Source: Candidatus Sulfopaludibacter sp. SbA3 (GTDB taxonomy: Bacteria; Acidobacteriota; Terriglobia; 20CM-2-55-15). From it: DNA of 32,654 nt. The position numbers and the translations under genes were made by a program. The stretch spans positions 1-32,654 of the forward strand of contig CAMBFR010000044.1 of assembly GCA_945865815.1 (NCBI GenBank), in the 5' to 3' direction. This document shows, piece by piece, positions 7,224 through 10,874 of the stretch; positions within the stretch are counted from its first letter, which is position 1; the number at the start of each line of letters is the position of its first letter. The notes below the pieces were generated by a model that ran no database searches, had not been told where the DNA came from, and was given only the letters and a program-made list of their open reading frames with translations.

Positions 7224-8045
7224 TTAGAAAATCTCCGGAAAGTAATACGTCAGCACCCAGTTCAGGGCCATGTCCGCGACGATGATTTCCTTGTTTGCGG
7301 GATTGATCGCCACTCCGCGGGGCTTTTTCAGGGCGCTCATCGGCCCTCCGATTTTCCACCGGGGTGCAACGTCTCCGTTATCGTCGATACTCCAAATGCC
7401 GACAAAAGCGCCCTCGGGCTCCCGCTGATCTCCACGGCCGGGCATGCTCGCGATAATCCATCCCTTTTGAGGATAGATCGCCATCTGGTTTATCCGGATA
7501 ATCCCGGTCCTGGGACCGCGGATGACGGCGCGAGGCCTGGTGTTCCCCTGGTCGGTACGGTTGAAGATGAGGAGGCCACCGCCGCCCGCCTCAGCCCTCC
7601 GGTCCTGGGTCCCCACGACGATCAGGTTACGAACGGGATCCACCACCACGGACTCCGCGTTCACGAGGGCCGTGTCGGGGCCCTCCAGAATGCGAATCGG
7701 TGCAACATCTCCGTTCGCCGTCCGGGAGAACACCAGAATGCGATTTCCTTCGGGAACGAGAATTTCGTTGTTCACGGGATCCACTTCAAGCCGGTCGGGA
7801 GCCACGATCGTTGTTTTGGGTCCCTGAATGAAGCGGATCGGCGCTTCTTCGCCGCTCGCGGCGCCTCGAAAAACGAGGATGGCGCTGGCGAAGGGATTGC
7901 TCACCAGCAGTTCGTCATGCACTTCGTCGTACCGGATATCGTGCATGGTCCGGCTCAGCAGAGTTTTCTGACCCGCGAGCAATCGGGCAGGCACTGCATT
8001 TTCCCCCGCCAGCCTGGCGAAGGCCGCAATCTGCGGGTGAGCCAC
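7224..8045 (-). CDS. C-terminal half of a split beta-propeller (NHL/lactonase-like) protein
   Basis: A 273-aa frame starting, formally, at a GTG directly after the TGA that ends the upstream gene, and in the same reading frame. It has no signal peptide and begins in the middle of a propeller repeat (QIAAFARLAGENAVPARLL). It then carries repeats of about 45 residues with the pattern VDP-x-x-NEILV...ILVFSR-x-ANGDVAPIRILEGP. Counting both halves I see about 12 repeats; this half holds the end of repeat 7 and repeats 8 to 12. The gene is therefore best read as the distal part of one protein spanning 7224-9419, broken by a nonsense codon, a base error or recoding. If made separately it would be leaderless in the export sense. 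Binding partner unknown. Confidence 0.75.
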   Translation of the reverse strand: MAHPQIAAFARLAGENAVPARLLAGQKTLLSRTMHDIRYDEVHDELLVSNPFASAILVFRGAASGEEAPIRFIQGPKTTIVAPDRLEVDPVNNEILVPEGNRILVFSRTANGDVAPIRILEGPDTALVNAESVVVDPVRNLIVVGTQDRRAEAGGGGLLIFNRTDQGNTRPRAVIRGPRTGIIRINQMAIYPQKGWIIASMPGRGDQREPEGAFVGIWSIDDNGDVAPRWKIGGPMSALKKPRGVAINPANKEIIVADMALNWVLTYYFPEIF

Positions 8046-9419
8046 TCAGTTCGGTACCAGGATCTGGCCGCGTCTGCTGTCATATGCGACCGCTCCCGGA
8101 TTCCCGATCGCCAGGGCCTGCTTTCCGGCAGGCGCCGCGCGAACCGTACGGATGGGGGCGGCATTACCATTGGCGTCGCGCGCAAACACGGTGGCCGAGT
8201 GATTCCCCATGTTGGACACGAAGAGTTCCTGATTCCGGGTGTCCACGAAGATTCCCGTGGGGTTCTTGATTCCCGTCCTCGGTCCCTTGATCGCGCGGAC
8301 GGGAGCGGCATTTCCATTTGCGGTTCCGCGAAACACGAGAATCGAATCATCGGCGTCATTGGCCACGAACAGTTCATCGCGGTCCGGGTCGAAGTAGAGG
8401 CTCGAGGGCCAGTTCAGGCGTGTCTGTTGCCCTTCGATAATGCGCAGCGGGCTCGCATTGCCCTGGGCATCGATCCGATAAACGGTGATCGATGGCGGAT
8501 CAAAGCGTCCGGACCCGGTCACAACCGTATCCGAAGCGCCGCCCGAGGCGGCATCCCCGCGATACCAGGCCGCAGCGTCGCCGCCAAAATCCCGCGCGTG
8601 GCCGTGATTGCTCACGAAGATCAATCCGTTTTTGGGATCGAGCGCGATTCCGTGCGGATCTTCCATCTGCGTCGCGGGTCCCTGAATCGTGCGCAGCGGC
8701 TTCTCTTCCCCTTCGGCCATCTTTCGGTAAACGACAACCGAATTCGTATGCTGGACGGTCAAGTACATCTCTTCCCGGCTCTCATCCACCACAATTCCGA
8801 ACGTACCGTGCGGCGTGTGCAACTGCCGAGTCGGAGGCACGTTTCCGCGAGCGTCGCGCGAGAAAATCGTCAGCGTGTCGATGGTGTCGTTGGCGACGGA
8901 ATAAATGTTCCCGGTCTTCGGGTCCACGTATAAGCCGCAGTTGAACTCCACTTTGGTGAGTGGCCCTCCGATCACTCGCTTCGGCTCCGCGATAGCGGCC
9001 GGCGGAGTGTTGGAGGTTCGGTCGTACACCATGATTTGAAACAGGTTCTCATCCTGAAGAATGAGTTCATTGTTCGCCAGGTCCACCGCTACGGCGCTAT
9101 ACGTGGGGTAGGTGTCGCGGATCACCCGGACTGGCGCCGTGGACGAGTCCGCCACCGGCCGGTTGCGCTGCGGTTCCGCTTGAGGCGCAGCCATGCTTGT
9201 CATCAACGAAACGCCGGCGCTTTGAGGCTCCACGATGCACATCTCTCCGGACATCTCGGGCATCTGTTGAATCGAAACCAGCTGCGGAAAGCCGGCCGGC
9301 GTCCGCAAATCGGTGCGGCCGAAGCCGAAACCGTCTGTTTCCAGCGCCGGATCTTGTCCGCCCGCCAGTACCCAGGCGCCAAAGGCTGCAAGTGCAAGGA
9401 TGAAGGCCCGTCGAACCAT
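8046..9419 (-). CDS. Exported beta-propeller (NHL/lactonase-like repeat) protein, N-terminal part
   Basis: A 457-aa protein with a signal peptide (MVRRAFILALAAFGAWVLAGG). After a low-complexity lead-in to about residue 105, repeats of about 45 residues follow (for example DRDELFVANDADDSILVFRG and TRNQELFVSNMGNHSATVFARD, each followed by a GN-x-APxRxIxGPxT tail). Six and a half repeats fit before the stop. Start: ATG at 9419 with GGGAGGA at 9427-9433; the frame is open to 9491 without support. One repeat carries a glycine- and alanine-rich insertion (GHARDFGGDAAAWYRGD and after). The TGA at 8046-8048 falls inside repeat 7 and the frame resumes at once in 7224-8045. Probably periplasmic or surface, protein- or ligand-binding; function unknown. 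Confidence 0.8.
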   Translation of the reverse strand: MVRRAFILALAAFGAWVLAGGQDPALETDGFGFGRTDLRTPAGFPQLVSIQQMPEMSGEMCIVEPQSAGVSLMTSMAAPQAEPQRNRPVADSSTAPVRVIRDTYPTYSAVAVDLANNELILQDENLFQIMVYDRTSNTPPAAIAEPKRVIGGPLTKVEFNCGLYVDPKTGNIYSVANDTIDTLTIFSRDARGNVPPTRQLHTPHGTFGIVVDESREEMYLTVQHTNSVVVYRKMAEGEEKPLRTIQGPATQMEDPHGIALDPKNGLIFVSNHGHARDFGGDAAAWYRGDAASGGASDTVVTGSGRFDPPSITVYRIDAQGNASPLRIIEGQQTRLNWPSSLYFDPDRDELFVANDADDSILVFRGTANGNAAPVRAIKGPRTGIKNPTGIFVDTRNQELFVSNMGNHSATVFARDANGNAAPIRTVRAAPAGKQALAIGNPGAVAYDSRRGQILVPN

Positions 9420-9521: not shown

Positions 9522-9700
9522 GGTAGTGGCGCCTGCAATTCCCCTCCTGTTTTAGGAGGGGTGGCGCGAAGCGCCGGGGTGGTATTGAAGGTCCAAAGAG
9601 TCTCTCGATCTTTTTACCACCCCGCCCTCGCTGTCGCTCGGTCTTCCCCTCCTGAAACAGGAGGGGAATTTGATCGCCAAATTCAAAGGACACCACTACC
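9522..9700. repeat. Palindromic intergenic element with nested hairpins
   Basis: Between the divergent propeller gene and the GlcG/HbpS gene. The outer 8-nt ends GGTAGTGG (9522-9529) and CCACTACC (9693-9700) are inverted. Inside, about 26 nt starting AATTCCCCTCCTGTTTT (from 9538) are repeated inverted near 9645-9670, each copy itself a small hairpin (CCCCTCCTG...AGGAGGGG). A further GGCGCGAAGCGCC hairpin lies at 9563-9575, and GGGGTGGTA/TACCACCCC form an inner pair. It resembles a REP- or MITE-like dispersed repeat. The whole gene-free gap is 9420-9725; outside the element it holds the propeller ribosome-binding site and AGGAGG at 9715-9720 for the next gene. Confidence 0.7.
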
Positions 9701-9725
9701 CTTTACCGTTTGATAGGAGGGAATG

Positions 9726-10874
9726 ATGAAACGTTTTCAACGTCTGGGATTGATTTGCGCCGCCATGACGCTTGCGGTCACCGCATCGGCGCAGAATTTG
9801 CCGCAGCAATTTGTCATTGGCGGAGAAGCTGCGAAGCGGATCCGCGACTTCACCACGATCAATCTGGCGACCGCGGAGCGCATTGCCGAGACATGCGAGC
9901 GCCTGGCGCGCGAGCAAGGGGTCGGGGTCAGCATCTACATTCTTGATAACGACGGCAACCACGTCTACATGCATCGCATGGACGGGCAGGGCTATCTCAA
10001 CATCGTCACCGCCGAAATGAAGGCGCGAACTGCCTTGATGGGCCGTGAGCCGAGCAAGAACCGGATGAACCGTGTCATTCAGAATCCGGATGCCGAATTA
10101 CAGCAGATCCAGCTCGGCTTCTTCCCCAACTCGGGTGGGCTTCCCATCGTCGTCAACGACCAGTTGATCGGCGCAATCGGCGTCGGGGGATCGGCGCCAC
10201 GGGTGGCGCAGGGCTGGAGCGACGAAATCTGCGCTCACAAGGCGATGATCGAAGTGCTTGGGCCGCAGCCGCCGCTGGTTGAGGACCTGCCGCCACAGGC
10301 GCCACAGGGATCAAGCACCCAGGCCACCGCGCCGGTCCCGCGCTTCGACCTGCCCCAGGGCACGGCCCCGCGCTCGTCCCTGCCCGCGGAATTCGTCGTG
10401 TCCGGACGCGCCGCGGCGACCATATTCGATGCCAATCAGATTTCCAGCGAAGCCGCGAAGAAGGTCGCCCGCACCTGCCGTGCGTGGGCCGCGGAGCGCG
10501 GCGGGACTGCCTCCATCTACATCATCGACACGCACCGCACATTCGTGCATCAGGAGCGGGGCGATGGACAGGTCTACAACAACATCCATACTGCCATGCT
10601 CAAGGCGCAGACGGCGCTGACTACGCGTCAGCCTACGTCTATCCGTGCAGCTCAACTACGCAACGACCCGCGCGGACTGCCACGTCAGTTGATGCAGTTC
10701 GGCTTCTTTGCCGTCTCGGGAGGACTTCCCATCGTTGTCGACGGCGAGATGATCGGCGCCATCGGCGTCGGCGGCGGCGCCGGCGGGGGTGACGAGAATT
10801 GCGCCATCGAGGGCCTCAAAGCCACCTTCGGCAATCGCGTCCTTCTGCCGGTCTATCCGGCGCAGCAAGACTAG
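9726..10874 (+). CDS. Exported protein with two tandem GlcG/HbpS-like domains
   Basis: A 382-aa protein with a signal peptide (MKRFQRLGLICAAMTLAVTASA, cut before Q). Two copies of the GlcG/HbpS fold (Pfam PF03928, formerly DUF336) follow, at roughly residues 28-180 and 222-375. They share the hallmark SGGLPIVVNDQLIGAIGVGG in the first and SGGLPIVVDGEMIGAIGVGG in the second, plus matching ASIYIIDTHRT/VSIYILDNDGN strands. A Pro/Ala/Gln-rich linker separates them. Family members such as HbpS of Streptomyces bind haem; others sit in glycolate loci, so haem or small-molecule binding in the periplasm is a guess. AGGAGG at 9715-9720 favours the ATG at 9726 over the one at 9723. Confidence 0.87.
   Translation: MKRFQRLGLICAAMTLAVTASAQNLPQQFVIGGEAAKRIRDFTTINLATAERIAETCERLAREQGVGVSIYILDNDGNHVYMHRMDGQGYLNIVTAEMKARTALMGREPSKNRMNRVIQNPDAELQQIQLGFFPNSGGLPIVVNDQLIGAIGVGGSAPRVAQGWSDEICAHKAMIEVLGPQPPLVEDLPPQAPQGSSTQATAPVPRFDLPQGTAPRSSLPAEFVVSGRAAATIFDANQISSEAAKKVARTCRAWAAERGGTASIYIIDTHRTFVHQERGDGQVYNNIHTAMLKAQTALTTRQPTSIRAAQLRNDPRGLPRQLMQFGFFAVSGGLPIVVDGEMIGAIGVGGGAGGGDENCAIEGLKATFGNRVLLPVYPAQQD

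Follow-up and report, generated by a model that had tools for sequence, protein, structure and literature searches.

The window (the whole 32,654-nucleotide stretch of DNA analyzed here) contains a minus-strand gene whose lone in-frame TGA is very probably a selenocysteine (Sec) codon, which would place the gene in a family of exported, twin-propeller selenoproteins (Table 1). Sec is the most likely reading of the UGA because the TGA is conserved, because the hairpin that follows it is SECIS-like and shows compensatory changes, and because the Sec machinery is complete. Translation of positions 7224 to 9419 bears out the initial annotation, in which one frame is split by a single TGA without any shift; a GGAGG-like site precedes the ATG at 9419. 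Read-through, which that annotation had also raised, is likewise supported, with the evidence pointing to Sec, a residue it had not named. In the mechanism we propose, SelB carrying Sec-tRNA(UCA) would bind a hairpin with an AGGYU loop 22 nt downstream and decode the UGA; the product would be an exported protein of 731 residues with two six-bladed, NHL-like propellers and Sec458 on the face of the second. When selenium is low, translation would stop at the UGA after propeller 1 and half a blade, making a truncated by-product possible.

Table 1. Features of the propeller gene and of the RNA around its in-frame TGA (feature; window positions; strand; details)
Proposed selenoprotein gene, full length	7224-9419	minus	731 codons plus stop; ATG 9419-9417, terminal TAA 7224-7226
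In-frame TGA, proposed Sec codon (residue 458)	8046-8048	minus	TGA in 57/57 homologues and 36/36 full-length profile matches
N-terminal hydrophobic helix	9357-9419	minus	helix 2-19 in model; hydrophobic N termini across homologues
Conserved Cys61 in flexible/disordered linker	9237-9239	minus	40/42 aligned homologues; linker pLDDT <50
First six-bladed propeller	8130-9110	minus	residues ~104-430; AlphaFold2 and structural alignment
Second six-bladed propeller	7227-8087	minus	residues ~445-731; AlphaFold2 and structural alignment
SECIS-like hairpin	8003-8023	minus	8-9 bp stem; apical A-GGC-U at 8015-8011; covariation, RNAalifold, bSECIS constraints
Smaller upstream hairpin CCGCA-GAU-UGCGG	8024-8036	minus	between UGA and SECIS-like hairpin; 87% of cells paired

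The identity of the in-frame codon is invariant across the family. In a non-redundant set of 57 homologues and paralogues, all from Acidobacteriota, every member has TGA at the same column, and none has TAA, TAG or a sense codon (Cys included), although at their true ends these genes use a mixture of stops (26 TAG, 17 TGA, and 11 TAA). Since family members range from ~42 to 93% identity to the window's protein, the TGA must be old. When 399 genomes of the class were searched with a profile, the 36 full-length matches each had exactly one TGA, and family members were also present in relatives at the level of genus, family, class and phylum, the second half always beginning right after the stop. 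The conserved sequence context is AAY UGA GUR, corresponding to the protein motif PNUV. Homologues with Cys in place of Sec are usual, existing for nearly all known selenoproteins, although they are not obligatory; none occurred among the full-length matches, in a search covering part of the public genomes. Measured against the copy carried by a second genome of the genus, both halves of the propeller gene are under equal purifying selection (dN/dS of 0.039/0.418, or ~0.09, for the N part and 0.030/0.429, or ~0.07, for the C part). Global reassignment of TGA is ruled out by the 17 family genes that terminate with this codon. A candidate from another phylum (L050, filed as Zixiibacteriota) matches only over residues 91 to 142 and gives no support for a presence there, and the junction pattern found no match in viral contigs.

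Downstream of the UGA, the family shares a hairpin with the consensus UUCGCC-AGGYU-GGCGAA (loop AGGYU or GGY) and compensatory changes in its stem. It begins 22 nt 3′ of the UGA, with 30 nt between the UGA and the loop (the first loop base being nt 31). The main stem was recovered independently by RNAalifold, and the minimum free energy (MFE) is −7.5 kcal/mol or lower in 54 of 56 hairpins. Three of the five pairs in the smaller upstream hairpin also show compensatory changes (e.g., CCGCA/UGCGG to CCGAG/CUCGG); it is absent from the RNAalifold prediction and is less certain as a real element. To our knowledge, the standard bSECIS model does not include such a tandem arrangement, in which a second hairpin separates the UGA from the SECIS. 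When both hairpins are considered together, 91.5% of cells pair, versus 33 to 51% when the pairing is slid by 1 to 3 positions; double changes affect 7 of the 14 pairs, some of them changing the encoded amino acid on each side (GCC to CCC together with GCG to GGG), and the covariation score was reached by none of 500 shuffles.

Synonymous constraint reaches its maximum for the whole gene at codons 459 to 471, immediately after the TGA (0.37; mean 0.06, standard deviation 0.05), the next-best unrelated segment scoring 0.17. Codon choice here is nearly fixed: Val is GTG in 56 of 57 genes and Arg is AGG in 54 of 56. The 70-nt segment 3′ of the TGA is not unusually stable as a whole (z = 0.87), conservation being confined to the local hairpin, and an Rfam scan of the TGA site produced no match. 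The published bSECIS model specifies a loop of 3 to 9 nt, a stem of 4 to 16 bp, a G at loop position 1 or 2, a distance of 16 to 37 nt from the UGA, and an MFE of −7.5 or lower (PMC13188914). The family hairpin lies within these bounds: a G is found within the first two loop places, next to a closing A-U, with a 30-nt distance and a stem of 8 to 9 bp.

The source genome encodes the complete machinery for Sec incorporation: SelA (564 bits), SelB (387 bits), SelD (362 bits), and a tRNA-Sec with anticodon tca (UCA). Its SelD (locus L136, G000:C15:15603-16520) has its own in-frame TGA, in the context KSAG-U-AGKLGPGD and accompanied by an AGG-loop hairpin; SelD with an in-frame TGA is a known type of selenoprotein, and this gene served as a built-in positive control. 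Among the 25 family-bearing genomes, SelB scored over its cut-off in 23 and tRNA-Sec was found in 20, with at least one of the two in 24. The exception (G043, 82% complete, with 14 family copies) has neither SelB nor tRNA-Sec detected, and its 100%-complete genus mate has both. Across 101 relatives, the presence of the family and that of the Sec machinery are not significantly associated (Fisher p ~0.24) because the machinery is widespread in the class; as such, their co-occurrence is consistent with Sec decoding but not discriminating.

An AlphaFold2 model built with 46 homologues (pLDDT 88.2, pTM 0.84) resolves twelve blades into two six-bladed propellers. The twelve repeats, the stop within repeat 7, and the pairing of six-bladed propellers with the stop near their boundary, all proposed from the initial inspection, thus recur in the model: residue 458 lies just past strand B of blade 7, with which the second propeller begins. 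Structural alignment places single NHL propellers on residues 88 to 730 of the model (~265 residues at 2.2 to 2.6 Å) and others on residues 104 to 430. The N-terminal helix is likely an export signal or membrane anchor, judging from the model and from the homologous N termini; the C part of the gene has no export signal. Strand 98-100 seems to provide blade 12 with the outer strand it lacks and thereby to close propeller 2, in which case the complete fold would require the read-through chain. His493 is invariant (46 of 46); it belongs to the D-A loop of blade 8, and Sec458 to the B-C loop of blade 7. The B-C and D-A loops of propellers share the functional face, and our best guess is therefore that propeller 2 bears a putative redox or metal site, formed by Sec458 and His493 and perhaps joined by the mobile Cys61. 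From sequence we infer Sec insertion, export, and this redox or metal role alike.

The alternative that survives best, although we consider it very improbable, is termination followed by reinitiation, in which a second protein would begin from the GTG that immediately follows the TGA, and the halves would assemble. GTG can serve as a start codon and adjoins the TGA in 56 of the 57 genes; however, the remaining copy has GTA, which is not a usual start, ATG occurs in none, and none of the 57 has a Shine-Dalgarno (SD)-like motif before this position. Moreover, TAA and TAG never occur as the stop, the C part has no export signal, the division between the two products would lie within a blade, and the final blade apparently depends on the N-terminal strand. 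A coupled start would also have no need of a covarying hairpin 22 nt downstream. The designed two-product gene that had been suggested for this locus is disfavored as well, by the missing SD-like motifs, the GTA copy and the lack of an export signal in the C part. Less probable still is that the UGA is read through as another amino acid, by near-cognate Trp or a suppressor tRNA and promoted by downstream RNA structure: the conserved AAY UGA GUR context and the structure could stimulate decoding without Sec, but TAG and TAA never replace TGA, the hairpin conforms to the bSECIS model, and the source genome encodes Sec machinery along with a SelD of the Sec type. A sequencing error or recent pseudogene, as a lone in-frame stop in one gene might suggest and as was initially proposed, is excluded by the identical TGA in 57 genes from many independent assemblies and by the purifying selection acting on the C part.

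With Sec as the preferred reading, the family resembles bacterial selenoproteins with a bSECIS (such as FdhA and SelD) in its in-frame UGA, its GG-loop hairpin 16 to 37 nt downstream, and the presence of SelA, SelB, SelC and SelD in the genome, but it differs in having an uncatalogued fold, no Cys form found, and many paralogues per genome. Each half of the protein has the same fold as the NHL propellers (TRIM2/3/71, Brat, PAL, and the designed Pizza; VIA-align Z of 26 to 30 and 2.2 to 2.9 Å over 245 to 275 residues), with a profile match to Pizza6-SH at 8e-12 and an NHL Pfam match in the N part (28.5 bits against a cut-off of 20); unlike these, the window protein has two propellers per chain, Sec in blade 7, and only 13 to 20% identity. 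Sequence likeness to YncE and 6-phosphogluconolactonase is weak (33 of 46 members match PRK11028 and 15 of 46 match YncE), at 24.8 bits versus the curated NCBIfam cut-off of 370, and YncE is by annotation a single seven-bladed propeller. SBP56 (selenium-binding protein/methanethiol oxidase) is a beta-propeller linked to selenium that uses Cys rather than Sec; it is not among the structural matches listed, which is uninformative either way.

A May 2026 review catalogues 119 prokaryotic selenoprotein families (PMC13188914); its Table 1 contains no propeller of a similar kind. NCBIfam release 20 gave no match at its cut-off, and we found no propeller selenoprotein in the literature searched, although further papers and supplementary tables could still describe one. 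By our own assessment, this is a new selenoprotein family, unusual in its fold, its copy number and its absence of Cys forms, and with it the catalogue of selenoproteins would gain a new fold. GrdA is likewise a selenoprotein described as lacking Cys homologues (PMC12013277), although it belongs to PF04723, has a CxxU motif and is unrelated by annotation, whereas the present family combines a double propeller with PNUV. By its own description, the deep-Sep finder may discard families that lack Cys homologues (PMC12013277), and filtering of this type would explain how the propeller family was overlooked. Its genes are annotated as two broken halves, which would hide the family from ordinary pipelines and from any selenoprotein finder that requires Cys homologues.

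Copy number ranges from 1 to 40 per genome, often in clusters: 10 in the source genome, 21 in each of two others, and ~40 in G055, where the copies lie on many contigs of an 83%-complete, 4.2-Mb assembly and strain co-assembly could inflate the count. Such numbers would suggest that some Acidobacteriota of soil and groundwater use selenium heavily, and they raise the question of why dozens of exported propellers would each need Sec and never Cys. Tentatively, the family may represent a lineage-specific explosion of exported, obligate-Sec proteins, as many as 40 to a genome, in which the UGA would double as a selenium-dependent switch between one- and two-propeller products; although we think this somewhat doubtful, a single family would, if it is true, rival the largest known bacterial selenoproteomes.

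Of the 47 copies in three genomes, 26 have TonB-type outer-membrane proteins (PF25183) within 5 kb, where ~7 would be expected, an excess that is inflated by clustering and is clear in the source genome (G000) and G023 but not in G030. Such proximity is only a hint, one that fits an exported protein working with outer-membrane uptake. In the source genome, PF25183 proteins lie close to family members at G000:C22:17430-39501 and on contigs C85 and C84.

Upstream of the propeller gene, the palindrome CCCCTCCTNNNNNAGGAGGGG is present in two perfect intergenic copies (window positions 9541-9561 and 9646-9666; none expected by chance) and may be a dispersed repeat. The divergent neighbor beyond them (9723-10874) encodes HbpS-like and GAF domains and shows no sign of forming an operon with the propeller gene.
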